From contig JALSJF010000266.1 of NCBI GenBank assembly GCA_026989505.1, positions 1 through 38,274 on the forward strand: 38,274 nt of DNA. The letters are read 5' to 3'. A program made the translations under genes and the position numbers. Shown here piece after piece: positions 17,202 through 30,810 of the stretch; positions within the stretch are counted from its first letter, which is position 1; every line of letters starts with the position of its first letter. The notes beneath the pieces are model-generated. The model made no database searches. It was not told the origin of the DNA and saw only the letters and a list, made by a program, of their open reading frames with translations. The DNA is from Cyclobacteriaceae bacterium. GTDB lineage: Bacteria; Bacteroidota; Bacteroidia; Cytophagales; Cyclobacteriaceae.

Positions 17202-18176
17202 TTAAAATGCTGATCCTTTAAGTTGTAAGCCGCTGGTTTCTTTTATGCCGAACATCAGGTTCATGTTTTGCACCGCCTGCCCCGAGGCCCCCTTGAGCAG
17301 GTTGTCGATGGTGCTGGTAATCAATACATACTCCCCGTGCGCTTCTACATGCAACCACACGTTATTGGTGTTGACCGCCTGTTTCAGGTGGATGGGCTGC
17401 CCGGCAAACTGCACGAAGGGATGTCCGGCAAAGTATTCCCGGTAAGCCGCTTTTATTTCTTTCAGGGGACGGTTTATCCGGGTGTAGATGGAGGCGAAAA
17501 TACCGCGGGTAAAATTACCGCGCACCGGGATAAAAAGAGTATCGCCCGGCCACCCTCCTGCAAGTTGTGTGAGCGTTTCCTTTACTTCCTGCAAATGCTG
17601 GTGGGTAAAGGGTTTGTAAATACTCACGTTATCATGCCGCCAACTGAAGTGTGTGGTGCCGGTGGGTGCCTGCCCGGCCCCGGTAGCCCCGGTGATGGCA
17701 TTGATGTGTACATCTGCGGCTAGCCACCCGGCAGCCGCCAGCGGCAGCAGGGCCTCTTGTATGGCCGTGGCAAAGCACCCCGGATTGGCCACACTGGTTG
17801 CCTGGCGGATGGCTCCTTTGTTGGCTTCGGGCAGGCCATAGACAAAAACCCGGTTGCCCAGGGTATTTTGGCCCTGCAGGCGGAAATCCTGACTCAGGTC
17901 GATGATTTTCATGGATTCCGGGATGTTGTTCCTGCTTAAAAACTCCCGCGATCGGCCGTGGCCCATACACAAAAAAAGCACATCGCCCGTAAAGGGCAGG
18001 GTGGCGGTAAAATTCAGGGCGGTGGCGGTAATATCCTGGTGCACCTTGCTGACGGCCTCTCCGGCATGCGAAGTACTGGCCACTGCAGTGATTTCCGCCT
18101 CTTGGTGATGCAGCAGGAGCCGTAGCAGCTCTCCGGCTGTGTAGCCGGCCCCTCCGGCTATTTCTACTTTAATCAT
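17202..18176 (-). CDS. argC: N-acetyl-gamma-glutamyl-phosphate reductase
   Basis: NADPH-dependent reduction of N-acylglutamyl phosphate to the semialdehyde. The 324-residue protein carries the nucleotide-binding GGAGYTAGELLRLLL start (8-22), the catalytic Cys134 in SVANPGCFATA, ITGATGAGQAPT, and the active-site His in KPFTHQHLQE. The 8-nt overlap with argG upstream indicates translational coupling to the reading frame that contains the argG premature stop. Confidence 0.94.
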   Translation of the reverse strand: MIKVEIAGGAGYTAGELLRLLLHHQEAEITAVASTSHAGEAVSKVHQDITATALNFTATLPFTGDVLFLCMGHGRSREFLSRNNIPESMKIIDLSQDFRLQGQNTLGNRVFVYGLPEANKGAIRQATSVANPGCFATAIQEALLPLAAAGWLAADVHINAITGATGAGQAPTGTTHFSWRHDNVSIYKPFTHQHLQEVKETLTQLAGGWPGDTLFIPVRGNFTRGIFASIYTRINRPLKEIKAAYREYFAGHPFVQFAGQPIHLKQAVNTNNVWLHVEAHGEYVLITSTIDNLLKGASGQAVQNMNLMFGIKETSGLQLKGSAF

Positions 18177-19368
18177 ATTTTCGGGTTATGTGGTTAAACA
18201 ATTGCAGGGGGTTGGCCAGGATTTTGGTAAAGCCTTTTACGTCCTCACCGCTCCAGCCTTTGTTCATCTCCCCGTAAGCGCCAAAGGAGGCATCCATTAA
18301 ATCAAAATCGCTTGCTATGCCGTCCACCGTAAAGCGATAAGGGTGCAGGGTAAGGAAAACCGAGCCGCTGACCCTCTCCTGGGTTGCTTGCAGGAAATTT
18401 TCGATATTGCGCATCACCGGGTCTAAGTATTGGGCCTCGTGCAGCATCATGCCGTACCAGTTGGCCAGTTGTTCCTTCCAGTGGAGCTGCCATTTGGTCA
18501 GGGTATGTTTTTCCAGGGCATGGTGGGCTTTGATGCTCAGCAGGGCTGCGGGGGCTGCGAAGGCCACCCGGCCTTTGATGCCGATGATGGTGTCGCCTAC
18601 GTGGATGTCACGGCCGATGGCATATTGAGCCCCCAGGGCATTGAGGCGCTCAATTACGGCTACGGGCGCCATTTCCTTCCCGTCTATCCCGCATCACTCA
18701 CCCCGGTTAAACTGCAGGCTTAGTTTTTGCGGGTTTTTTGCCTGCAAAGCTGAAGGCCAGGCGGTTTCCGGCAGCGGCAGGTGCGAGGTGAGGGTTTCTG
18801 CCCCGCCAATGCTGGTACCCCAAAGCCCCTTGTTAACCGAATATTTGGCCTTTTCCCAGCTTGCTTCCACGCCAAAGCTCTTGAGGTAGGCCATTTCCTC
18901 CTCGCGGCTAAGTTGCTGGTCGCGGATGGGGGTGATGATGCCGGCATCGGGGATAAGGCTGGCAAACACCAGATCGAAGCGCACCTGATCATTGCCCGCC
19001 CCGGTACTGCCGTGGGCTACAAAACCGGCCCCGGTTTCCTGTACATATTCGGCAATGGCCACCGCCTGCACGGTACGCTCGGCACTTACCGACAGCGGAT
19101 AGGTGTTGTTTTTCAGCACATTACCGAAAACAAGGTACCTGATTACTTTGTCGTAATAGGTCTGCACCCGGTCGAGCACCCGGAACGAGGCTACCCCCAG
19201 CGACCGGGCTTTGGTCTCGACAGCAGTCAGTTCATCCGGGTTGAACCCTCCGGTATTGACCAGCACGGCATGTACCTCCAGGCCCAGGTCATGCTCCAGG
19301 TATTTAACACAATAGGAGGTGTCGAGCCCGCCACTGAAGGCCAGTACCACTTTTTTCTTTTGGCTCAT
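18169..19368 (-). pseudogene. argG: Argininosuccinate synthase gene interrupted by an in-frame TGA
   Basis: Citrulline plus aspartate to argininosuccinate. The reading frame is a full-length 400-codon ArgG in one frame, except that codon 225 is TGA (18696-18694). The first part (224 residues) has the PP-loop AFSGGLDTSYC and the HGSTGAGNDQVRFD motif and stops after FNRGE. The frame then continues CGIDGKEMAPVAVIERLN to the natural TAA at 18169, giving the expected C-terminal oligomerisation domain. There is no frameshift. The remainder could restart at ATG 18672, giving a 167-residue C-terminal piece. Explanations are a real nonsense mutation, a single-base sequencing error, or read-through. 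Tryptophan recoding is unlikely because TGA ends many genes here. Neighbouring genes are intact. Confidence 0.85.
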
Positions 19369-19994: not shown

Positions 19995-20349
19995 TAGGAA
20001 AAATGTTAAAAACAGACGACCAGCCGGGCTGGGAAATTGAACTTAAATAATAAAATATAATGTGAAGCAGGCAGGGCACATAGCCCCGCAGAAAAGAATC
20101 AGACCCCTAAGGGCCTGGCGTTCCTTGGCCTTGCAGCATATACGGCCGGAGCTACCGGAGCGGTAGCGGGGATAAGGGCGGTATCGGCAATGCTGTTTTT
20201 CATCGAGCGCCAAAAGTAATACCAGAATTTAAAAATCCTATAGTAAATGCAAATTTTTTACAAAAAAAGAACCGCATGTGAAAATGAAAGTACTTTGCAG
20301 AGAAAAAAATTACTGCAAGCTTGCCTTTTATCCCCTAAGTTTTTATTAT
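19995..20349. other. Intergenic region between the arginine operon and the export cluster
   Basis: About 380 nt separate the divergent GNAT and TetR genes. It contains a perfect 6-bp hairpin (gctacc 20151-20156 with ggtagc 20162-20167) and an imperfect one around 20108-20132. A TACTTTTG match to the -7 consensus occurs on the minus strand at 20218-20211, but without a convincing -33 partner. No arginine-rich leader peptide or convincing gene was found. Confidence 0.5.
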
Positions 20350-20367
20350 TGACCGACCGTTCAGTCA
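20350..20367. promoter_or_regulatory. Candidate TetR operator
   Basis: TGACCGACCGTTCAGTCA is an 18-bp near-perfect dyad: 7 of 9 base pairs match around a centre at 20358/20359. It ends 10 nt before the TetR ATG. Size, symmetry and position are typical of a TetR/AcrR-family autoregulatory operator that would control the whole downstream export cluster. Confidence 0.7.
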
Positions 20368-20377
20368 TAAATTAATT

Positions 20378-20959
20378 ATGAGCCCCAGAACGCCTGCCCA
20401 GAATGAAGAAATAAGGTTGGCCAGCCAGGAGAAAATACTTAGGGCCGCCTTTGAACTCATTGCCCAAAATGGTTATGAAAGTACCAGCATTGCTATGATT
20501 GCCAAAAAGGCAGGCGTATCGAAAGGGTTATTATACAATTATTTTGATAAGAAAGAAGACCTCGTACGGGCGTTGCTTGAAGCGGCCATGCGTGAAGGCG
20601 ATGTCATGCTTCGTGAACTTATGGACGATGATGCCAGCGCCACACTGAAAAATATTTTTCAATGGTTTTTCCGCGAAATGCGTGAGCAGCCTCACCACTG
20701 GCGGCTTATGGCTGAGCTTTCGCTTAAAATTGATAACCTCAATATCGTCCGCAAATTTGCTTTGGGCAAGCTGAATGAATATGTAGGCTTAATGGAAAAC
20801 CTGCTTACCCGGTTGGGCTATGAAAATGCCCTGGGCGAAGCCAGGCTCATCGTGGCTTTGTTTGATGGCATTGGCTTTGAAGCCTTGATTTTAAAAAAGG
20901 ATTACCCCCTGGATGAAATGGAAGCGTATTTAATAACTAAATATTGTCAGGAAAAATAA
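20378..20959 (+). CDS. TetR/AcrR-family transcriptional regulator
   Basis: A 193-residue one-component repressor. The N-terminal HTH is classical: EKILRAAFELIAQNGYEST, then the recognition region IAKKAGVSKGLLYNYFDKKEDL. The C-terminal ligand and dimer domain is divergent, so the inducer cannot be guessed. It precedes a five-gene export cluster by 1 nt and has a palindromic site directly upstream, so it most likely represses itself and the cluster. It is unrelated in sequence to the second TetR at 31533. Confidence 0.92.
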   Translation: MSPRTPAQNEEIRLASQEKILRAAFELIAQNGYESTSIAMIAKKAGVSKGLLYNYFDKKEDLVRALLEAAMREGDVMLRELMDDDASATLKNIFQWFFREMREQPHHWRLMAELSLKIDNLNIVRKFALGKLNEYVGLMENLLTRLGYENALGEARLIVALFDGIGFEALILKKDYPLDEMEAYLITKYCQEK

Positions 20960-20960
20960 G

Positions 20961-21701
20961 ATGAAAACCACGCTACCCATCCTGCTGCTGTTGCTGGCGG
21001 CAACGGCCTATGGCCAAACAGCCAAAGAGATCATCAAAAAAGCCGATGATAAAATGCAGGGGCAATCGAATATATCGGAGATGAAAATGACAATTGTCCG
21101 CCCCACCTGGAAACGGGAAATCACCATGAAAGGCTGGGCCCTGGGGCGTGAATACAGTCTTATCCTCATTACTTCCCCGGCCAGGGACAAGGGCACGGCT
21201 TTTCTTAAGCGTAATAACGAGATGTGGAACTGGCAGCCCTCTATCGACCGGGTGATTAAGTTGCCCCCTTCGATGATGCTGCAATCGTGGATGGGCTCTG
21301 ATTTTACCAACGATGACCTGGTAAAGGAGTCCTCCATTGTCAACGATTATGACCAGGTACTGGAAAAAGATACAGTAATCAATGGCCTGGACTGTTATAA
21401 AATTGTGATGACCCCCCATGCGGATGCGGCCGTAGTTTGGGGGAAAGTGGTGGTTTATATTGATAAGCAGGAGTTTAACCAGCACCTGGCTTACTATTAT
21501 GATGATGATGGGTTTTTAGTAAACACGATGGTCCTTTCGCAAGTCAAAAAAATAGGGGGGCGCCTGCTGCCTACCCATCTGGAGATGATTCCCGCAGAAA
21601 ATCCCGGGCATAAAACCATGATTGATTATCTGAGTTTAGAATTCGATGTGGGCCTAAAAGAAAGCTTTTTTTCAATGCAGAACATGAAACGGGTACGGTA
21701 A
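20961..21701 (+). CDS. LolA-like outer-membrane lipoprotein-sorting protein (PF17131-type)
   Basis: A 246-residue periplasmic protein with a Sec signal peptide (cleavage after AYG, about residue 19). Sequence features match the outer-membrane lipoprotein-sorting family related to LolA/LolB: an N-terminal helix (AKEIIKKADDKMQGQ), strands with the KGWALGREYSLILITSP and NEMWNWQPSIDRVIKLPPSM segments, and the diagnostic MLQSWMGSDFTNDDLVKES stretch. The fold forms a half-barrel that binds acyl chains. It directly precedes two FtsX-type permeases and an ATPase, so it probably collects or delivers a lipidic cargo from this transporter. It is not the housekeeping LolA by length or sequence. Confidence 0.85.
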   Translation: MKTTLPILLLLLAATAYGQTAKEIIKKADDKMQGQSNISEMKMTIVRPTWKREITMKGWALGREYSLILITSPARDKGTAFLKRNNEMWNWQPSIDRVIKLPPSMMLQSWMGSDFTNDDLVKESSIVNDYDQVLEKDTVINGLDCYKIVMTPHADAAVVWGKVVVYIDKQEFNQHLAYYYDDDGFLVNTMVLSQVKKIGGRLLPTHLEMIPAENPGHKTMIDYLSLEFDVGLKESFFSMQNMKRVR

Positions 21702-21717
21702 TTAAACGAAAAAGCAG

Positions 21718-22941
21718 ATGTATCTAACACTTGCCTGGCGAAATATCTGGCGCAATAAGAGGCGTAGCCTTATCACCATTGTGTCTATTGCCTTTGCCGT
21801 ATTGCTGGCCTGTGTCATGCGCTCCTTGCAACTGGGCTCTTACAACCGTATGATTGAGAATGCCGCCCGCTTTTATACCGGGTATATCCAGGTGCATAAA
21901 AACGGCTATTGGGCGGATAAAACCCTGGAGAACAGTTTTGTTAATGATACCGGCCTGCTGGCTATGATTGACCGTATAGCCGGGGTAGAAGTAGCCGTGC
22001 CGAGGCTGGAGTCATTTGCCCTGGCTTCTTACGGCACCAAAACCAAAGGTGCGCTGGTACTTGGCGTGGAGCCTGAAAGGGAAGACCTGCTCACCCGGGC
22101 CAGGTCGAAGGTAGTTGCCGGGGCCTACCTGCAAGCCCATGATAAAGCCGTGCTGGTAGCGGCCGGCCTGGCCAATTACCTTAAGCTTGGCGTGGGCGAC
22201 ACCCTGGTGTTAATCGGCCAGGGCTTTCACGGGGCCAACGCAGCCGGGGTATATCCGGTTAAAGGCATCCTGAAGTTTCCGGTGCCTACGCAAAACAACC
22301 AAACGGTATTTTTACCCCTGAAAGAAGCCCAGTGGTTTTATGCAGCCGACAACCGCCTGACCAGCATCGCCCTGGTGGTTGACAAAGCTAAAAACGTGGA
22401 CCGCATTGTGGCCGGCATCAGCGCTAACGTTGACCCTGCCGCCCTGGAGGTAATGGGCTGGCGGGAGTTGATGCCCGACCTGGTACAGGGCATAGAAATA
22501 GACAATATCAGCGGCAAGGTGATGTTGGGGGTGCTATATGCCGTTATCGGCTTTGGAATGTTTGGCACCTTTTTAATGATGACAGCCGAACGCATGTATG
22601 AGTTTGGCGTGATGATGTCGGTGGGTATGACCCGCCTGCGCATGCAGTTTGTCATTTTCCTGGAAATGGGCCTGATGGCCGCCCTGGCGGTGGTGGCCGG
22701 CATCGGCCTCAGCCTGCCGGTGCTGGTGTATTACCACCATAACCCCATTTACTTTACGGGTGATTCGGCCCGGGCCATCGAGAGTTTCGGTATTGAAGCC
22801 GCCTATTTCTTCTCGCTTGAACCGTCATTGTTCTATAACCAGGCCTGGGCCATCTTTTTTATGGCCTTTATCCTGGGCTTTTACCCTTTGCTTGTTATTC
22901 AACGGTTAAAGCCCGTACAAGCCATGCGCGATGCCCTGTAA
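21718..22941 (+). CDS. ABC transporter permease, FtsX/LolC-LolE type (1)
   Basis: A 407-residue inner-membrane permease. It has one N-terminal membrane helix (about residues 16-38, preceded by WRNIWRNKRRS, the usual basic motif), a large periplasmic MacB-PCD-like domain (about 40-260), and three C-terminal membrane helices (about 270-400). This is the type VII ABC topology of LolC/E, MacB and FtsX. It starts 16 nt after the LolA-like gene. It pairs with the next permease, similar in layout but diverged in sequence, probably as a heterodimer. Such transporters do mechanotransmission on periplasmic substrates, consistent with lipid or lipoprotein extraction. Confidence 0.9.
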   Translation: MYLTLAWRNIWRNKRRSLITIVSIAFAVLLACVMRSLQLGSYNRMIENAARFYTGYIQVHKNGYWADKTLENSFVNDTGLLAMIDRIAGVEVAVPRLESFALASYGTKTKGALVLGVEPEREDLLTRARSKVVAGAYLQAHDKAVLVAAGLANYLKLGVGDTLVLIGQGFHGANAAGVYPVKGILKFPVPTQNNQTVFLPLKEAQWFYAADNRLTSIALVVDKAKNVDRIVAGISANVDPAALEVMGWRELMPDLVQGIEIDNISGKVMLGVLYAVIGFGMFGTFLMMTAERMYEFGVMMSVGMTRLRMQFVIFLEMGLMAALAVVAGIGLSLPVLVYYHHNPIYFTGDSARAIESFGIEAAYFFSLEPSLFYNQAWAIFFMAFILGFYPLLVIQRLKPVQAMRDAL

Positions 22942-22962
22942 TTATGCTAAACAACCCTAAAT

Positions 22963-24177
22963 ATGTTAGTTAAAATAGCCTGGAAAAATGTCTGGCGCAG
23001 CCGCAGCCGCAGTCTGGTGGTAATCGGCTCCATCATTGTGGGGGTATGGGCCCTGTTGTTTGGCTCCGGTTTTATGAACGGTTTCCTGGTAAGTTATATG
23101 GCCAATATTATCAACCATGATATCTCCAATATTCAAATCCACAACCCCAAATTCAAGCAGGATTTTGATGTACGCTATTTTATCGCCAACGGCAAGGCCA
23201 AGGCCGCTGCTGTCCGCCAGTGGCCGGGGGTGCGCGGGGCCACCACCCGCACTATTGTTTCCGGCATGATATCATCGCCAAAAAAAGCAGCCGGGGTGCA
23301 AATCAGGGGGGTCGACCTGAAAAACGAAGCCCTTGTTACCCGCCTCGACTCCATGGTGGCTGAGGGCACCTATTTTACCGGGATTAAGCGTAACCCCATC
23401 ATTATCGGCTCGCGGATGGCAGAGAACTTAGGGGTTAAACTACGGTCAAAGGTGGTGCTTACCTTTAATGATGGCCATGGCAATATTACGGCCGGGGCGT
23501 TCAGAATTGTGGGGATTGTAGAAAGTTCATCCGTGGCCATCAGCGAAACCTATGCCTTTGTCCGCCAGCAGGACCTGACCAAACTGGTTGCCCTCGGTGA
23601 TATTGTCCACGAAATTGCCATCCTCACCCAGCCACAGACGGATGAAGCCGCTATTATTACCCGCTACCGGCAAACGTATAACCACGACCTGGTTGAAAGC
23701 TGGCGCGAACTGGCCCCCGAGCTGGCGGTGATGAACGAAATGTATGGCAATATGCTGTATGTTTTGATGGGCATAATTTTAACGGCCCTGGTTTTCGGTA
23801 TTGTAAATACCATGCTGATGGCGGTACTCGAAAGATTTCGCGAACTGGGTATGCTGATGGCGGTAGGCATGAACAAGGCCAGGGTTTACCTGATGATTAT
23901 GATTGAAACTGTTTTCCTTGGCGTGGCCGGGGCGCCCATCGGCCTGCTGGCCGGCTGGTTGACCATTTACTATTTCCGTATGCACGGGGTGGACCTGAGC
24001 AATTATTCCGAAGGACTGGAAGCTTTTGGCTATTCGGCCCTCCTCTACCCTTACCTGGACAACCAGGTGTATTTTATTGTTACCCTGGGGGTAGTGGTTA
24101 CCGCCCTGGTATCGGCCTTGTACCCCGCCTGGAAGGCCATCAAACTAAAACCCGTAGAAGCATTGCATAAACTTTAG
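22963..24177 (+). CDS. ABC transporter permease, FtsX/LolC-LolE type (2)
   Basis: A 404-residue partner permease with the same 1+3 membrane-helix layout: the IAWKNVWRSRSRSLVVIGSI start, a periplasmic domain from about 45 to 265, a helix at about 267-290, then ERFRELGMLMAVGMNKARVY, the FtsX-type coupling-helix sequence that contacts the ATPase. The C-terminus YPAWKAIKLKPVEALHKL is the standard family ending. It lies 21 nt after the first permease and 16 nt before the ATPase gene. Confidence 0.9.
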   Translation: MLVKIAWKNVWRSRSRSLVVIGSIIVGVWALLFGSGFMNGFLVSYMANIINHDISNIQIHNPKFKQDFDVRYFIANGKAKAAAVRQWPGVRGATTRTIVSGMISSPKKAAGVQIRGVDLKNEALVTRLDSMVAEGTYFTGIKRNPIIIGSRMAENLGVKLRSKVVLTFNDGHGNITAGAFRIVGIVESSSVAISETYAFVRQQDLTKLVALGDIVHEIAILTQPQTDEAAIITRYRQTYNHDLVESWRELAPELAVMNEMYGNMLYVLMGIILTALVFGIVNTMLMAVLERFRELGMLMAVGMNKARVYLMIMIETVFLGVAGAPIGLLAGWLTIYYFRMHGVDLSNYSEGLEAFGYSALLYPYLDNQVYFIVTLGVVVTALVSALYPAWKAIKLKPVEALHKL

Positions 24178-24193
24178 CCAAAAGATCACTACC

Positions 24194-24877
24194 ATGAGCG
24201 TTATAAAAGCCAATAATATTCATAAAACTTATACCGAAACAGCCGTACCGGTACACGCCTTAAACGGGGTCACCCTGAGTGTTGAAGAAGGTGAGTTTAC
24301 TGCCATTGTGGGGCCTTCGGGCTGTGGTAAAACTACCCTGTTGAACATCCTGGGCGGGCTTGATACCCCTACGGAAGGCACAGTAGAGGTGGCTAATACC
24401 GATATTACCGGCATGAACGACAACCAGTTGATTAATTTCAGGCTACAAAACATCGGCTTTGTCTTTCAGGCCTATAACCTGATACCGGTGCTGACCAACA
24501 AAGAAAATGTGGAGTTCATCATGTTACTGCAAAAGTGGCCGCGGCAGGAACGGGAGCAGCGGGCGATGGAACTGCTGGCGCAAATGGGCATTGCCGATAA
24601 AGCCAACCAGCGCCCCTCGGAATTATCGGGCGGCCAACAACAACGGGTAGCGGTAGCCCGGGCGCTGGCTTCCAAACCCAAGTTTATCCTGGCCGATGAG
24701 CCCACGGCCAACCTCGATTCCAAATCCACGGCTAACCTGCTGGATATGATGGCTCAATTGAATAAAGAGGAACAAGCCACTTTTGTTTTTTCAACGCACG
24801 ATCAACGGGTAATTGACAAGGCCAGGAGAGTGATTACCTTAGAAGACGGCAAAATTGTGGCTGACATAACCCGCTGA
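24194..24877 (+). CDS. ABC transporter ATP-binding protein, LolD/MacB-type
   Basis: A 227-residue cytoplasmic ATPase. Walker A GPSGCGKT is at 40-47, the Q-loop Gln92 is in [13 protein letters not shown], the signature LSGGQ is at 144-148, Walker B with catalytic Glu is ILADE (165-169), and the switch His is in FSTHDQRV. The [15 protein letters not shown] segment is characteristic of the LolD/MacB/FtsE subgroup that works with FtsX-type permeases. Its stop (TGA) is directly followed by the ATG of the outer-membrane protein gene. Confidence 0.95.
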
Positions 24878-26146
24878 ATGGTGAAAAAGCTGGCGTTTGC
24901 TGTTATCTTAACGGCCCTGTGCCCCGGCCATGCTTTATGGGCACAGGAAGGCAATGAGGAACCCAAATGGGCTTTCAAAGGCTATCTGAAAAATATGTCC
25001 ACCTTCAGTTGGTCGCCCTACCTGGGCGATACACTGTGGTACGACAACCTTACCCACAACCGCCTGAACCTGGCCTGGTACCCCGCGGATGAGTTTACCG
25101 TGTATATTGAAATGCGTAACCGCTTGTTTGTTGGCGCCAGTGTCAACAATTTTCCTGCCTATGGTGAACTTATTGATGCCGGTAACGATTTTTTTGATTT
25201 ATCTTTTAACCTGGTTGACAATGGCGCGGTGGTGCTGAACCTCATGTTCGACCGGCTTTATGTGCAGTGGGTTAAAAATGACTGGGAAGTAAAACTGGGC
25301 CGCCAACGGATTAACTGGGGGGTAAACCTGGCCTGGAACCCCAACGACTGGTTTAATGCCTATTCGTTTTTTGATTTTGATTATGAAGAACGCCCCGGCA
25401 GCGATGCCCTGCGCATAACCTATTATACCGGGGTGGCCGCCAGCCTTGAGGTAGCCGCCAAAATTGCCAACCGCCCCGATGACTTTGTGGCCGCTACCCT
25501 GTATAAAACCAATAAATATAACTACGATTTCCAGTTTTTGGGTGGCTTTGCCCAAGGCGACCTGGCTTTGGGTGGCGGCTGGGCCGGCAACCTCGGCAAG
25601 GCCAGTCTGAAAGGGGAGCTGACGTATTTTTTACCGCTGGTGGAAACCGAAAATAACACCCATTACTTCCGGGACCCGCTTGACCCCACCAAATACCTGC
25701 TCGATGCCCGGGGGAACCGTATCAAAGAGTCGGAGCGGTACCGCCAGATGTTTCTGGGGGCCGTTTCAGTAGATTACTCGTTTGCCAACTCCTTGTATTT
25801 AAACGGCTCGGTGATGTACAGTTCTATTGGCGACTACGAGGCCAATATTGTTGGTACGGCTTTCACGCAGCAGTTCGGGGATTTTACCGTGCGCGACTTA
25901 TCGCCCTACCCCTGGTCGGCTTTTGTGCAGGGTACTTACCAATTCAGCCCGCTGGTGTTTGGCGGGGCGGCCATCATGGGGTATCCGGGCGCCAATAGTT
26001 TTTTTATCAACCCTTTCCTTACCTGGTCGATGGGGCAAAACCTTGACCTGGACCTGATCGGGCAGGTTTTTTTTGGCGATAACCAGAACGGCCGTTACGA
26101 TGCCATCTCCAAAGGGATGTTCGTCCGCCTGAAGTGGAGTTTTTAA
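24878..26146 (+). CDS. Outer-membrane beta-barrel protein (porin / alginate-export-like)
   Basis: A 422-residue outer-membrane protein. A signal peptide ends near WAQ (residue 23). The rest is rich in alternating aromatic and hydrophobic strands (FTVYIEMRNRLFVGA, LYVQWVKNDWEVKLGRQRINWG, TLYKTNKYNYDFQFLGG) and ends in the C-terminal aromatic FVRLKWSF expected for BAM recognition. The GRQRINWGVNLAWNPNDWFNAYSFF region is like the hairpin of DUF1302/alginate_exp proteins. Last gene of the cluster, placed so that it could receive cargo from the LolA-like protein at the outer membrane. Its stop codon is the TAA of a TTAACCCG repeat end. Confidence 0.8.
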   Translation: MVKKLAFAVILTALCPGHALWAQEGNEEPKWAFKGYLKNMSTFSWSPYLGDTLWYDNLTHNRLNLAWYPADEFTVYIEMRNRLFVGASVNNFPAYGELIDAGNDFFDLSFNLVDNGAVVLNLMFDRLYVQWVKNDWEVKLGRQRINWGVNLAWNPNDWFNAYSFFDFDYEERPGSDALRITYYTGVAASLEVAAKIANRPDDFVAATLYKTNKYNYDFQFLGGFAQGDLALGGGWAGNLGKASLKGELTYFLPLVETENNTHYFRDPLDPTKYLLDARGNRIKESERYRQMFLGAVSVDYSFANSLYLNGSVMYSSIGDYEANIVGTAFTQQFGDFTVRDLSPYPWSAFVQGTYQFSPLVFGGAAIMGYPGANSFFINPFLTWSMGQNLDLDLIGQVFFGDNQNGRYDAISKGMFVRLKWSF

Positions 26147-26179
26147 CCCGAAAAAATATATAAGAATTTTCCGGGTTAA
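26143..26179. repeat. Minimal palindromic repeat, copy E, at the cluster's 3' end
   Basis: TTAACCCG (26143-26150) pairs with CGGGTTAA (26172-26179), with an A/T-rich interior (aaaaaat...tttt), so it forms a near-perfect hairpin. The TAA inside its left end is the stop codon of the outer-membrane protein gene. It could act as a transcription terminator for the export cluster. The region to 26438 has no gene. It shows two more small palindromes: gccct/agggc at 26183-26195 and aaggc/gcctt at 26220-26232. Confidence 0.75.
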
Positions 26180-26438
26180 GTTGCCCTTTCAGGGCGTATT
26201 TATCTGTTTACCGCTAACCAAGGCGGTGCCTTGTATTACATAACCCAGGCCTTCAGCCTGTTGGTAAAAAAAACTGCTCTTCTGTTGAAATAAAGCCTGG
26301 TTTTAACCCGGGTTCAGGTTATCAACAACTTACAAACCGTGCCCTGGCGTATTGGCGACTTTTAGGAAGAATCCGGGATAGCGGCCAAACCCCTGGTTGC
26401 GTATGCCATTCCTAAGAGAGGGCCTGCGCCTCCTGGTA

Positions 26439-29249
26439 CTAAAACGTGTAACTGTATTTAAGGGAAAGCTGCACCCCGGGGTTATAATTATAGTACATCT
26501 TGTCTGCCGCACCAAACGACCGGTACACCTGCTCCCGCGTATCGTTTAACAGGTTATCTACGCCAAAGGTCAGCCGTGAACTACGCCTGGCGCCAAACGA
26601 TTTGTAGGCGTTGAAACTCAGGCTGTGAAAAGGTACGCTGTACACATCGGGAACCACACCGGTGCCGACAATGGCCAGGGTTTCGCCCTGCACATTATAG
26701 GCCAGGTTAATATTCAGGTCCGCCTCCGGGATCGTATAGTTAAGGTAAGCGTTGATCAGATAGGGTGCCTGGCCGGCCATCGGCCGGGTGTCGGCTATTG
26801 CCTCATCATCGCGTTTAAATTGCTCCCGAAGTTCTTTCTCCGTGACGGTACCGGAGTTATCCACCAAAATTGAATTCATATCCACAAATGATTTGATCAG
26901 GGAAACATTGACCCCCAGTGTCAAATCCTTTAAAGCCGGAGCGAGCAGTTCCAGGCTTTTGCGTACTTCAAATTCAAGCCCATACACCCAGCTATCCGTG
27001 GCATTACGGGGTTTAAGGGCCGTGGGGTCAACCGGGAAAGAGACCAGTTCTATGTGATTTTCAAACTTTTTATAAAAAGCCGAGACGGCCAAAAGCTCCC
27101 CGGGTTGCATAAAATACTCCCAGCGGAAATCATAATTATCAATATTGGCCTGTTTTAAATCTATATTGCCCACAAAGGTGCGGTTGGTAATGGGGTCATA
27201 AATCTGGGCGATCGACTTTTCTTTAAACGAGGGGCGGGCCAGGGTTTGGTTATACGAAGCCCGCAGGTTCATGTTTTCCGTAAGGCTGTAAACCAGGTTC
27301 ACCGAAGGCAGAAAATCCAGGTTATTCAGGGTTTCTACCGTATTGTAGATCAGATCCCCCCCGTTGGTCTGGCCGGTGTAGTACATCATCGACTGCTCGG
27401 CCCGCAAACCGAATATACTACGGAAATTGGCTGCAAGGTACAATTCGGTCATGGCATAAGCACTATAAATTAACTGTTGTGCCAGGTAGGTGTTGGCTGG
27501 TTCATAGTTGCCCACCACATAGGTGCCCTGGCGGGAATCGGCCGTCCAGATGTTTTCCGGTTGAAAAAACCAGTCGGGGTCAATCTCAATAGCCCCGGCC
27601 GCCCGTTGGCGGAAAATGTAGTTGAGTACTTCAAAATTACGTTTCTTATACGTGGCATAACCGCCAAATTTAAGCTTCGACTTAGCTGCATAGGGCATGG
27701 TAAGGTCGGCCTTGAAGCTGCTGTTGAATTCATTCAGGTCGCGATAAAAGCGGTTGATGCCGGCTCCGTCACCCACATTGAGGGTAGTATCACCATCGGT
27801 CACCGAAACAGCCGTAATGCGGAAATCGGGGTCGTAAACGCGTGACCAGTTCAGGGCCCCGCGCCACTCCAGTTGCACCGGGTTGAAATTATGTTTGCCC
27901 ACCAAAATACCGTTGGTTACCGAACGCTGGGTATAGGTAAGGATGTCTTCAAGCAAGGTAGCCCCGGTTTGGTTAAAATTACGGCTTACCCGCTTATTAG
28001 CTACCGATTCACCACTCTGGCTTCGCAACAGACTGAGCGAAAAGCTGTGGTTAGCAAACTTTACCGCCCCGGAAGCCAGGGCGCTCCAGTTAACGGTTTG
28101 CTTGCCGATATTGCCGATCCGGTACTCATCAAAAAATTGTTCGGTAACGGCAGGGTCGGGGTCTTTAATAAAGTCATTGGCCTGTACACCGGTAAAAAAT
28201 TCATAGGTGTTACGATAGTTCAGAACCAGGTTATACCCAAGTGTCATTTTTTCTTTATTGAACTGGTTGCCGGTGTTAAATGAAAACGAGCCGCCCGGCA
28301 GGGCCTGCCGCTTACGGGCGGCCATCACCGGGTTAAAACTGCGGGTCAGGCGTTCCAGTTCGGGGGTAACCTGCGATTCTGCCGGGATGATGGTGTTTTT
28401 AGGAAAAGGCAAGGCCCGGGTACCGTCATCAAAGCCCAGCCAATCGGTTTTACCGCCCTTGTAGAGGATAAAATTATTGTTGAATTGCACCCCCGGGGTA
28501 ATCGTCAGCCCCAGGGCGATGGCGGTAGTGCCCTGATCGGGAAAATCTTTGGTTTCCACATCAACCACCCCTCCGGTAAAATCACCATAGAGGTTGGGCG
28601 AAAAGGTTTTATACACCATCACGTTATTCAGCACGGCTGTAGGGAAGATGTCAATCTGTACCGAATTTTTATCGGGGTCCAGGCCGGGGATGCTCATGCC
28701 GTTGAGGGTGGTTTTGGTATAGCGGTCGCCCAGGCCACGCACATACACGTACTTGCCCCCTTCAACCGAGACCCCCGTAACCCTGCGGATGGCCCCTGAA
28801 AGATCAGCATCGCCTATTTTTTTAAAGGTTTGGCTGGAAATGCCATCGGCCACATTCACGGCCTTCTTTTGGGCGGCCAGCAAACCGGCCTCGGCATCAC
28901 GGATAATCTCGGCCGTGACGACCACCCCGTCAAGCTGCTCAATATCCGCTTTCATATTGATGTCCATGGAGGTAACCTCACCGGCCACAATTTCTACCCC
29001 GCTAACGGTAACCGTAGCATACGAAATTGAAGAAAACACCATAGTGTAGGTGCCGGGGGCCAGGGGCAGGGAATAATCACCGTTGAAATCGGCTACTGTG
29101 CCCTTGGTGGTACCCTCTACATAAATATTAGCGCCAATCAGGCCTTCACCAAGCTCCTCGTCAATAACCCGGCCACGTAAAAAGCCGTTTTGGGCATTAG
29201 CCGGGCCAAACAAGGCAACAAATACAAAAAGCAGAATAGTTTCTTTCAT
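26439..29249 (-). CDS. TonB-dependent outer-membrane receptor with carboxypeptidase-regulatory-like domain
   Basis: A 936-residue active-transport receptor. The signal peptide ends GPANAQ (residue 20). A CarboxypepD_reg-like beta-sandwich (about 24-100: RGRVIDEELGEGLIGANIYV) is followed by the plug (about 120-230, with LNGMSIPGLDPDKNSVQIDIFP) and a 22-strand-type barrel ending in Phe (SLKYSYTF). Unlike SusC there is no adjacent SusD gene. Instead, a beta-helix lipoprotein lies immediately upstream in the same direction, so the pair probably handles one ligand. Start ATG 29249 gives a proper signal peptide; the in-frame ATG at 29264 adds only five residues. The substrate is unknown. Confidence 0.9.
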   Translation of the reverse strand: MKETILLFVFVALFGPANAQNGFLRGRVIDEELGEGLIGANIYVEGTTKGTVADFNGDYSLPLAPGTYTMVFSSISYATVTVSGVEIVAGEVTSMDINMKADIEQLDGVVVTAEIIRDAEAGLLAAQKKAVNVADGISSQTFKKIGDADLSGAIRRVTGVSVEGGKYVYVRGLGDRYTKTTLNGMSIPGLDPDKNSVQIDIFPTAVLNNVMVYKTFSPNLYGDFTGGVVDVETKDFPDQGTTAIALGLTITPGVQFNNNFILYKGGKTDWLGFDDGTRALPFPKNTIIPAESQVTPELERLTRSFNPVMAARKRQALPGGSFSFNTGNQFNKEKMTLGYNLVLNYRNTYEFFTGVQANDFIKDPDPAVTEQFFDEYRIGNIGKQTVNWSALASGAVKFANHSFSLSLLRSQSGESVANKRVSRNFNQTGATLLEDILTYTQRSVTNGILVGKHNFNPVQLEWRGALNWSRVYDPDFRITAVSVTDGDTTLNVGDGAGINRFYRDLNEFNSSFKADLTMPYAAKSKLKFGGYATYKKRNFEVLNYIFRQRAAGAIEIDPDWFFQPENIWTADSRQGTYVVGNYEPANTYLAQQLIYSAYAMTELYLAANFRSIFGLRAEQSMMYYTGQTNGGDLIYNTVETLNNLDFLPSVNLVYSLTENMNLRASYNQTLARPSFKEKSIAQIYDPITNRTFVGNIDLKQANIDNYDFRWEYFMQPGELLAVSAFYKKFENHIELVSFPVDPTALKPRNATDSWVYGLEFEVRKSLELLAPALKDLTLGVNVSLIKSFVDMNSILVDNSGTVTEKELREQFKRDDEAIADTRPMAGQAPYLINAYLNYTIPEADLNINLAYNVQGETLAIVGTGVVPDVYSVPFHSLSFNAYKSFGARRSSRLTFGVDNLLNDTREQVYRSFGAADKMYYNYNPGVQLSLKYSYTF

Positions 29250-29346
29250 ACCAGGGAAGATCAATTTTGCGGCAAAATTATCAGTATGCGGGCCCCGGCA
29301 GGCAAATACCGATTTATCATATTATTATTTAAATATTATGGAAATG

Positions 29347-29421
29347 TTAACCCGGATGACCCCGGGCCATCGGGGTCATCCGCCCTGCGGGCGAAAAATT
29401 CTGATGAATTTTTCGGGTTAA
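29347..29421. repeat. Dispersed palindromic repeat, copy D, at the lipoprotein stop codon
   Basis: Bounded by TTAACCCG (29347-29354) and CGGGTTAA (29414-29421). Inside are an 11-bp perfect hairpin (29354-29364 with 29371-29381) and a ccctgcggg / gcgaaaaattc segment that also occurs in copy B. On the minus strand its TAA supplies the stop of the beta-helix lipoprotein. It lies in the gap before the TonB receptor gene and may weaken or terminate transcription between the two genes. Confidence 0.75.
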
Positions 29422-30707
29422 TTGAGCAGGCCGCTTGCCGAGGCTACTGTCCAGTTGGCGAAAGGGGCCAGGGTAGCTCCGGTAGCATTGGCCGAAGAGG
29501 CCACCACAGCTTCCGCATCGGCCTGGGCATTGGCATGCAAGCCACAGGTAGTGGTGCCATCGGCCGCCACTGATTTGGTATATACTTTTATGCCGCTAAA
29601 CCCGGAGTTTACCAGTTGCAGGGGAACGGCTGAATTGGGATCGGTAAAATGTAACCAGGCATCGTCCTTTACATCGGCACAATCATTGGTATAAGAAGCC
29701 CTGATCTTCACCAGGTCGTCACCGGCAGCATAGTTGGCAAAAACCACGTTGTCAAGCGTACCTTGGGCTTTGGATTTCAGGTCGGCCGGGGTGCCGCCAT
29801 CCACTCCGCCCAGGCTGGTCACCAGACCGTTTTTCAGGGTGAATAAGCCGGTGGTATGCGTGGTGCCTTCCGGTCCGTCAATCTCCAGGCCTTCATCGGT
29901 GCCGCTGCCCCCGTGCATAACTACAAAGTTAGCTACCGTACCGGCATAATTCTGGTCTATATCGATGCCGTCATCGCCCTGGTAGCTCACCACCAGGTTG
30001 GTTACATTTACTGTGCCGCCAAAAAGCTCTACGCCATCATCAAGGGTAGCAAAAATTTCAATGTCTTCAATCACCGTACCGGCCCCAACGCCCCCGAGGG
30101 TAAGGCCGTTGATCTCGTTGCCGGCCCCTATCTCGGCCCCGCCATGGCGGATGGACACATAACGCAAAACCCCGGAGTTGTCGTTGGCATCGCTGCCCCC
30201 GTACAAGCCGTAGCTTTCCTCAGCCGGGATACCTTCGATCTGGCTTTCGGTATCCCCGTTTTCGGCTGAAACCGGGGCTTTGCCAAGAATTATCACCCCA
30301 CCCCATTTATCCTTGTCATCCTGGGTAAGGTTGGTGCCACGTAACTCGCCTATTTTTATGTTGTCTTCCACAGAGGTAAAAATTATCGGTTTGCCGGCTG
30401 TGCCTTCGGCCATAATTTTGCCCCCGCGGGCCACAATCAGGGCGGTGGCCAGGGAGCCGGAGCCGGCCCGGCCTTTGATAATGGTACCCGCTTCAATGGT
30501 CAGGGTAACACCCTCGGCTACCACCACTTTGTTGGCCAGCTCATAGATCCGGTCGGCTGTCCAGGTAGTGTTTTGGCCGATTGTGCCCGTTACCACTACA
30601 TTTTCCGTGACCGGGGTGTTGACAACGGGGGCCACGCTGCTCTCAATACATGATGGCGCCAGGGCCGCTACGGCCAGCACCATCGTAAGGGTAAAAATTT
30701 TCTTCAT
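29418..30707 (-). CDS. Lipoprotein with right-handed beta-helix, partner of the TonB receptor
   Basis: A 429-residue surface or periplasmic lipoprotein: MKKIFTLTM start with the lipobox Cys at residue 20 (LAPSC). The body is built of short, glycine- and valine-rich strands (VVVAEGVTLTIEAGTIIKG, ALIVARGGKIMAEG, VVSYQGDDGIDIDQNYAGTV), typical of a parallel beta-helix, and includes several GxDDG turns that could hold calcium. I recognise this as a lipoprotein type often placed next to TonB receptors in marine bacteria and Bacteroidota, but the ligand is not known. Start ATG 30707 is preferred; an upstream in-frame start at 30749 would put 14 residues before the signal peptide. Confidence 0.8.
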   Translation of the reverse strand: MKKIFTLTMVLAVAALAPSCIESSVAPVVNTPVTENVVVTGTIGQNTTWTADRIYELANKVVVAEGVTLTIEAGTIIKGRAGSGSLATALIVARGGKIMAEGTAGKPIIFTSVEDNIKIGELRGTNLTQDDKDKWGGVIILGKAPVSAENGDTESQIEGIPAEESYGLYGGSDANDNSGVLRYVSIRHGGAEIGAGNEINGLTLGGVGAGTVIEDIEIFATLDDGVELFGGTVNVTNLVVSYQGDDGIDIDQNYAGTVANFVVMHGGSGTDEGLEIDGPEGTTHTTGLFTLKNGLVTSLGGVDGGTPADLKSKAQGTLDNVVFANYAAGDDLVKIRASYTNDCADVKDDAWLHFTDPNSAVPLQLVNSGFSGIKVYTKSVAADGTTTCGLHANAQADAEAVVASSANATGATLAPFANWTVASASGLLN

Positions 30708-30810
30708 GGTATAGATTGGTTTAAAGTTGTCAAATAGTAATCGCTGCAAAATTCCCCTTACGGTATTAACTCCATAGCAATATGATGTTATAGAAATGTT
30801 AACTTTAAAC

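Follow-up and report, generated by a model that had tools for sequence, protein, structure and literature searches.

A conserved Bacteroidota gene row with a LolA-like carrier, a type VII ABC motor and a porin-like barrel: a candidate trans-envelope exporter

Analysis of a 38,274-nucleotide (nt) stretch of a Cyclobacteriaceae draft genome (3.5 Mb; assembly GCA_026989505.1, contig JALSJF010000266.1, here C266; hereafter "the window", meaning the whole stretch analysed) revealed a compact operon of six open reading frames (ORFs) on the forward strand (20378-26146), encoding, in order, a TetR-family regulator, a LolA-like carrier of family PF17131, two FtsX-type permeases, an ATP-binding cassette (ABC) ATPase and a 422-aa barrel-like protein. 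We read this operon, at a probability of about one half, as a dedicated, ligand-inducible ABC system that exports a small, lipid-like amphiphile across the envelope, that is, as a cousin of the TetR-MMPL-LolA3 systems in which the engine has been swapped. This reading is based on a gene order found again across the phylum as well as in Persicobacter and Vibrio campbellii; on the likeness of the carrier fold to LolA3, of permease 2 to LolF/LolE and of the ATPase to LolD; on an OprD/AlgE/MOMP-type barrel with a conserved stretch; on weak, partial matches to this barrel beside MMPL-type carriers; and on a cassette without adaptor or TolC whose operator is conserved at the promoter.

The gaps between the six ORFs are 1, 16, 21, 16 and 0 nt, and together with the Pfam and NCBIfam assignments (Table 1) they bore out the place, strand, gene order and tight spacing given in a preliminary description of this DNA. 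No adaptor (HlyD/MacA type) or TolC was found among the six proteins with Pfam and NCBIfam, the rest of the genome not having been searched; Pfam detected no MMPL/RND (resistance-nodulation-division) pump among the six, and the cassette contains no LolB.

Table 1. Positions of the operon genes and associated elements in the window.
Feature	Position	Strand	Details
Promoter-like box TATTATTG	20344..20351	+	one mismatch to Bacteroides -7 box TAnnTTTG
Palindromic probable TetR operator TGACCGACCGTTCAGTCA	20350..20367	.	18 nt; ends 10 nt before TetR start codon
TetR-family regulator	20378..20959	+	193 aa; PF00440 (TetR_N) 68.4 bits
LolA-like periplasmic carrier, PF17131	20961..21701	+	246 aa; 179.5 bits
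Permease 1, FtsX/LolCE type	21718..22941	+	407 aa; FtsX 43.5, MacB_PCD 47.5 bits; lolCE 77.6 bits
Permease 2, FtsX/LolCE type	22963..24177	+	404 aa; FtsX 63.2, MacB_PCD 36.6 bits; lolCE 134.1 bits
LolD-type ABC ATPase	24194..24877	+	227 aa; ABC_tran 134 bits; LolD 238.5 bits
Probable outer-membrane barrel	24878..26146	+	422 aa; ~18 strands, fold match from model
RNA hairpin directly 3' of barrel stop codon	26142..26180	+	folding vs shuffles

The carrier scored 179.5 bits against PF17131 (LolA_like; curated cut-off 30), and no match to PF03548 (LolA) was obtained at E-values up to 0.1, which sets it apart from the carriers of the Lol pathway. Its N-terminus appeared signal-like and without a lipobox cysteine, as judged by eye in an alignment of 25 sequences, and its nearest relatives in named records were from metagenome-assembled genomes of Cyclobacteriaceae (up to 76% identical). 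A structural model with a predicted local distance difference test (pLDDT) score of 79.2, poor at residues 95-122, matched NE2245 (3buu; Z 21.2 over 207 residues), LolA3 of Porphyromonas gingivalis (9tp6; Z 21.1 over 208 residues), a DUF1329 protein (4z48; Z 20.9) and 3bk5 (Z 20.1), four values too close for a firm ranking, while the classical LolA/LolB chains reached Z values of about 8-12. The model supports a LolA fold, with a curved sheet and closing helices (Z 21 to LolA3), so that a carrier lacking an acyl-binding fold, which would have told against the preliminary description, is not what the model shows. In the accessible part of its description, LolA3 possesses a hydrophobic groove and its interaction with LolB is very weak (PMC13103446).

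Both permeases exceeded the Pfam cut-offs for FtsX and MacB_PCD, and their nearest NCBIfam model was LolCE (77.6 and 134.1 bits, below the cut-off of 362.45). The ATPase was nearest to LolD (238.5 bits, below the cut-off of 307.75), followed by DevA (221.2) and MacB (214.3). The LolCE/LolD cut-offs discriminate weakly in this phylum, as other LolCE-like candidates of the same genome miss them too (201.6 and 171.5 bits). When compared with solved structures in the PDB, the profile of permease 2 matched LolF, LolE, LolC and MacB; in plasmid records, permease 1 matched Persicobacter and V. campbellii at the top and otherwise distant FtsX permeases (best 15 of 94 records). By its families, the motor can be assigned to the type VII ABC systems (LolCDE/MacB/FtsEX type), with FtsX + MacB_PCD permeases and a separate LolD-like ATPase. 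The genome encodes another LolA, a PF03548 protein on contig C68, as well as other LolCE-like permeases, below the cut-off, on contigs C60 and C13. Housekeeping Lol was rejected as an explanation of the operon on account of these separate genes, which agrees with the separateness from that pathway originally proposed. As far as the family tests indicate, the set is a LolA-like carrier system that lies outside the Lol lipoprotein pathway.

The sixth ORF had no Pfam or NCBIfam match, and its profile found nothing in the PDB by sequence at E-values up to 1. Its model (pLDDT 79), on which approximately 18 strands were counted and which ends in a C-terminal Phe, matched MOMP (5ldv) at Z 21.6 over 306 residues, OprD-type structures at about 20 and AlgE at about 19, with 5-14% identity, pointing to a probable 18-stranded porin-like (OprD/AlgE/MOMP) fold. 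A distant tie to DUF1302 is possible, one of 20 relatives matching this family at E 2.6e-4 and the window protein itself remaining under the Pfam cut-off. The most conserved 37-residue stretch of the barrel, residues 141-177, where on average 91% of rows share the commonest residue (56% elsewhere), may form an inward loop like L3 of porins, judging from its position.

Seventeen of the 26 carrier loci in named genome records contained all six genes in order, including one in which the barrel is cut by the contig end (L026) and one with an extra permease (L007). The other nine comprised three five-gene loci without a TetR match, two without a barrel match and four that were cut short. Of 395 Bacteroidota genomes searched, 114 gave a match to the carrier profile (E 1e-10) and 93 to the barrel profile (E 1e-5). 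The best carrier scores per genome formed two groups separated by a gap (223 vs. 143 bits), and a close carrier, that is, one of the upper score group, was present in 88 genomes, about a fifth. In 79 of these, permease 1 lay no more than 5 kb and the barrel no more than 12 kb from it; six had only the permease (with a barrel match on another contig in five), one only the barrel (G223, whose permease row is absent from the matches listed, although the locus survey, as L098, does find permeases) and two neither neighbour, their matches lying on different contigs. This tally was made from match tables transcribed by hand, with carriers below 220 bits excluded. Among 40 fetched loci, the order LolA-FtsX1-FtsX2 was present in all and the order LolA-FtsX1-FtsX2-ATPase-barrel in 37. 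The 79 genomes with permease and barrel adjacent and the 37 loci in full order show that the five-gene order is conserved across Bacteroidota, as the proposal of a dedicated pathway in the preliminary description required, and chance gene order was ruled out by this conservation. An extra FtsX1-type permease or permease pair was also seen nearby in L007 (3757-6204) and in four of the survey genomes (G377, G119, G336 and G171). Carboxylicivirga linearis (L027) and Phaeodactylibacter luteus (L021) are among the non-pathogenic species that carry the operon.

The five-gene order was also found in a Persicobacter plasmid and in a 2-Mb V. campbellii record, with carriers 52% and 46% identical to that of the window, while the eight other listed genomes of Cyclobacteriaceae gave no carrier, barrel or permease match. 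Such a patchy spread suggests transfer and loss.

The nearest NCBIfam model of the regulator was the FadR type of Bacillus (63.3 bits; equivalog cut-off 200). The palindrome in front of it, TGACCGACCGTTCAGTCA, is symmetric at 14 of 18 positions and was not listed by a seed-based repeat finder because its arms are imperfect. Its first two bases are the last two of the promoter-like box TATTATTG, which resembles TAnnTTTG, the Bacteroides -7 promoter element according to the text available of PMC4747536. A degenerate operator pattern, written from the window site before the sites of relatives were seen, preceded TetR by no more than 120 nt, with up to three mismatches, in 30 of 32 loci (the window, 20 named-record loci and 11 survey loci, which are related, so that the 30 are not independent). 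In 29 of the 30 the site lies 24-34 nt before the TetR start and in one (L026) at 88 nt; in 25 it shares two bases with the 3' end of a TAnnTTTG box that departs from the consensus at no more than one position, the box being exact in 13. Mononucleotide shuffling of the 32 stretches (200 rounds) gave a mean of 0.005 stretches per round with a match. The palindrome described in front of the operon was thus confirmed at its site and is conserved upstream of TetR in relatives; a repressor bound to this probable operator would be expected to block initiation.

Within the window, the pattern with up to three mismatches matched only its own site (0.16 matches expected; 15 of 100 shuffles with at least one), and in the whole genome it occurred without mismatch only there, with one further site at two mismatches. 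A reversed control pattern gave as many genome matches in all. Since there is one perfect site and the control matches equally often, the regulator looks local, and a wider regulon via this operator was dropped.

TetR was co-directional upstream in 11 of the 40 surveyed copies and only divergent in three, with no match in the upstream stretch in 26, as sought by BLAST in approximately 1.5 kb, where distant or divergent regulators may escape. In four of the 26, a MarR-like/winged-helix gene was present instead, one of these exceeding the Pfam cut-offs and the other three falling narrowly short. In V. campbellii (NZ_CP050465.1; L048, 5387-6829), the upstream gene encodes a solute-binding/GGDEF diguanylate cyclase protein rather than a TetR. 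Because the five-gene order is kept while TetR varies, the transport module appears from these comparisons to be the unit, with an exchangeable regulator and TetR as a variable add-on. The TetR control originally described is therefore present here, with its operator, but is not a fixed part of the system.

The same genome also contains, on contig C243 (L033, 3923-7668), three consecutive genes, one TetR-like (by eye), one MMPL and one PF17131. This contig stops 387 nt past the carrier, placing any following barrel beyond reach. Of 103 carriers labelled by engine, 81 were ABC-linked and 17 MMPL-linked, with four "none" and one "both". The 39 loci beyond the 64 of the two conserved sets comprised 17 MMPL, 17 FtsX, one both and four neither; three of these 17 FtsX loci (the window, L048 and L054) represent the same module as the window. 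Weak and partial barrel matches adjoin MMPL-type carriers in six loci (L051, L056, L057, L059, L119 and L124), three of which are backed by the barrel profile (G005, G087 and G382; E 1e-11 to 5e-11). In a tree of 78 of the 103 carriers, hand-chosen to thin near copies (L018 and L052 omitted earlier) and built by a rapid search that warned of long branches, the 42 rows belonging to the window's module formed one side of a branch with a Shimodaira-Hasegawa-like approximate likelihood ratio test (SH-aLRT) support of 95, which fell to 82 once three long rows were dropped.

With the "none" and "both" labels excluded, a two-state ABC/MMPL label required one change on this tree. When one group was contrasted with all the rest, two changes were needed for the MMPL rows and three for the remaining ABC rows; the other ABC systems therefore do not form a single group. 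The carriers would thus largely keep their engine type over long times, while carrier types and, more weakly, barrel types tend to be common to both engines; the exchange of ABC for RND is widespread and apparently old rather than a local oddity. That an ABC machine takes the place of an RND pump, as had been noted, is true of this operon. It is not peculiar to it, since PF17131 carriers linked to an ABC motor occur frequently in Bacteroidota and this genome has an RND version as well.

Compared with known systems, the operon shares the ABC architecture and the carrier fold with housekeeping LolABCDE, from which it differs by scoring below every Lol cut-off, by a carrier of another Pfam family, by the absence of LolB and by the added barrel and TetR. 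With the TetR-MMPL-LolA operons of P. gingivalis (PG1175-81) and Prevotella intermedia it shares a TetR, an "outer membrane lipoprotein-sorting protein" and hypothetical proteins, and the LolA3 of P. gingivalis (PGN0947), which we infer to be the carrier of PG1175-81, is a kindred carrier (Z 21.1 to our model). Those operons use an RND/MMPL pump as their engine, and additional ABC ATPase genes lie close by; the engine here consists of two FtsX permeases with an ATPase. The sections available of two reports describe these MMPL-type relatives as strongly induced in iron- or haem-poor medium (PMC10434189, PMC10470040).

A LolA-like carrier, a MacB/LolE-like ABC transporter and an outer-membrane barrel are likewise combined in Borrelia BBJ23-29, which the portion available of PMC13078400 proposes as an export system for a non-polar ligand; that system has a homodimeric permease, an Omp85 barrel and TPR proteins, whereas ours has two permeases, an OprD/AlgE-like barrel and TetR. 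The fatty-acid/polyketide-like clusters of Escherichia coli and Enterobacter similarly have an ATPase, an FtsX-type permease, a PF17131 carrier and a hypothetical protein (462 aa) in a row. They differ in having one detected FtsX-type permease (preceded by a small hypothetical gene), another order and biosynthetic genes, and their carriers are only 22-24% identical to ours. MacAB-TolC resembles the operon in its FtsX/MacB_PCD permease and ATPase type; here, no adaptor or TolC is part of the set, and a soluble carrier replaces the tunnel. Among the papers listed in the open-access literature searches (subscription papers and preprints not covered), no ABC + PF17131 + barrel module in Bacteroidota was found.

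Some clues to the cargo come from outside the phylum. In E. coli NZ_CP062824.1 (L065, 3101-18546), the fatty-acid/polyketide-like cluster includes a GCV_T-like protein, an ATPase, an FtsX permease, a PF17131 carrier and the 462-aa hypothetical protein; a 6-kb part of it was matched on the chromosome in 375 of 5426 complete genomes, in 369 over at least 80%, and a literature search on this cluster found no paper. The cluster adjoins a filamentous-haemagglutinin/ShlB pair. A similar cluster lies on an Enterobacter bugandensis plasmid (L050), and in Aliiroseovarius a more loosely linked ATPase-FtsX-PF17131 set lies near a ketosynthase gene. Because such sets occur in or near fatty-acid/polyketide-like clusters, an acyl cargo in these three genera would be consistent; this acyl link may not transfer to the operon. 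A flexirubin-linked LolA2/LolB2 has been described in Flavobacterium (PMC11885536, in the part available). Together, the LolA fold, the flexirubin-linked LolA2/LolB2 and the fatty-acid/polyketide-like clusters hint, indirectly, at an acyl or lipid-like cargo.

In the exporter that we favour, TetR would bind the palindrome where transcription starts and keep its own operon repressed until a ligand, probably the cargo itself or a related compound, releases it. The cargo would be drawn from the inner membrane and passed to the soluble carrier, whose LolA fold is supported by the model; the carrier would cross the periplasm and dock on the barrel, and the cargo would pass via the conserved loop of the barrel into or across the outer membrane. 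Several observations weigh against this scheme. Repression, induction and the direction of transport are presumed rather than read from the sequence, and the same holds for the inducibility and the lipid or lipoprotein cargo proposed in the preliminary description. No cargo gene is linked to the cassette in Bacteroidota: when the neighbours of 29 loci were compared (ORFs of at least 90 aa, many stretches short), the top outside family occurred in five, and as none exceeded this, the context carries no biosynthetic clue. Carriers of the E. coli type are only distantly related (22-25% identity), and the adjoining hypothetical proteins have no Pfam match. The barrel model is of moderate confidence, and poorest around the conserved residues 141-177, which are largely an inter-strand loop. 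Two of the 26 named-record loci (L019 and L023) have no barrel after the ATPase although the stretch continues, and among the 40 fetched loci the barrel is missing at this place in L109 and in L094, which lies at a contig end, and the ATPase was not seen in L098. The operator was not found in two of the 32 TetR loci (L022 and L110), and the 26 of 40 copies without a TetR match mean that a TetR ligand identical to the cargo is not general.

A less probable, in our view doubtful, explanation is that the operon clears the inner membrane of harmful amphiphiles, such as free fatty acids, haem/porphyrins or membrane-active antimicrobials, and that TetR senses the toxicant, as in the efflux systems HrtBA/HrtR (haem) and FarE/FarR (fatty acids). 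TetR and exchangeable regulators of this kind are common in efflux operons, and here a TetR heads the operon with an operator at the promoter, MarR-like/winged-helix regulators stand in some copies, the type VII ABC exporters include pumps such as MacB, and the distribution is patchy, without a match in the eight other listed genomes of the family. However, a soluble LolA-fold carrier and a set without adaptor or TolC are easier to reconcile with transfer from one membrane to the other than with a sealed efflux tunnel, and in P. gingivalis and P. intermedia the relatives of MMPL type rise, in the available text of the two reports, in iron- or haem-poor medium and not under toxicant load (PMC10434189, PMC10470040).

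We consider it improbable that the operon is a second Lol line for special outer-membrane lipoproteins, in which the barrel would act as a flippase to the cell surface. Its motor is nearest to LolCDE and its carrier models with a LolA fold, but the carrier belongs to PF17131 without a PF03548 match, the cassette lacks LolB, and LolA3, a close structural match, binds LolB only very weakly in the portion of its description at hand (PMC13103446). The barrel resembles porin/OprD-like structures, with no Omp85 among the best 50 matches listed, which does not thereby exclude one; no lipoprotein gene family travels with the cassette in the 29-locus comparison, and local TetR control suits a small-molecule inducer. 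Least probable of all, and very unlikely, is an inward or retrograde route, with a hydrophobic substrate entering through the barrel and travelling on the carrier to the inner membrane. Barrels of the OprD type frequently serve in uptake, which counts for such a route, but the known LolCDE/MacB-type ABC machines move cargo outward, and no catabolic genes lie beside the cassette in the window or recur in relatives. In Thalassolituus, an MMPL and LolA-like-domain protein and an associated porin, suggested by the authors to let alkanes through, rise on n-C28 alkane, according to the available part of PMC6304351, in favour of uptake.

Around the operon, the upstream genes on the opposite strand form a row read from Pfam matches as arginine synthesis. 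On that strand, argG (argininosuccinate synthase; 18169-19368, -), otherwise readable in one frame, is split by one in-frame stop codon into ORFs of 224 and 167 aa, reflecting either a broken gene or an assembly error. Downstream and convergent to the operon (26439-30749, -) are a 941-aa gene that resembles a TonB receptor by eye and the gene of a 443-aa protein, for which Pfam gave no match at E 1e-5. The hairpin directly after the barrel gene may mark the operon end: the stretch 26135-26195 folds with a z of -2.34, as well as which three of 200 shuffles fold, and no clear T run follows, leaving a terminator unsupported.

To our knowledge, the delivery to the outer membrane of lipids other than lipopolysaccharide and lipoproteins is a long-standing open question, about which little is known in Bacteroidota. 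A self-contained operon comprising an engine, a carrier, a barrel and its own switch makes this question testable. The presence of ABC and RND versions in one genome, with carriers largely sorted by engine, points to a modular trans-envelope design, of which no description in Bacteroidota was found in the open-access listings searched. More tentatively than for the exporter itself, we suggest that PF17131 carriers and porin-like barrels could constitute a general outer-membrane lipid-delivery route with interchangeable RND or LolCDE-like engines, of which this module would be the main Bacteroidota ABC form, delivering a specific membrane lipid. If true, the module would set the composition of the outer membrane on demand.

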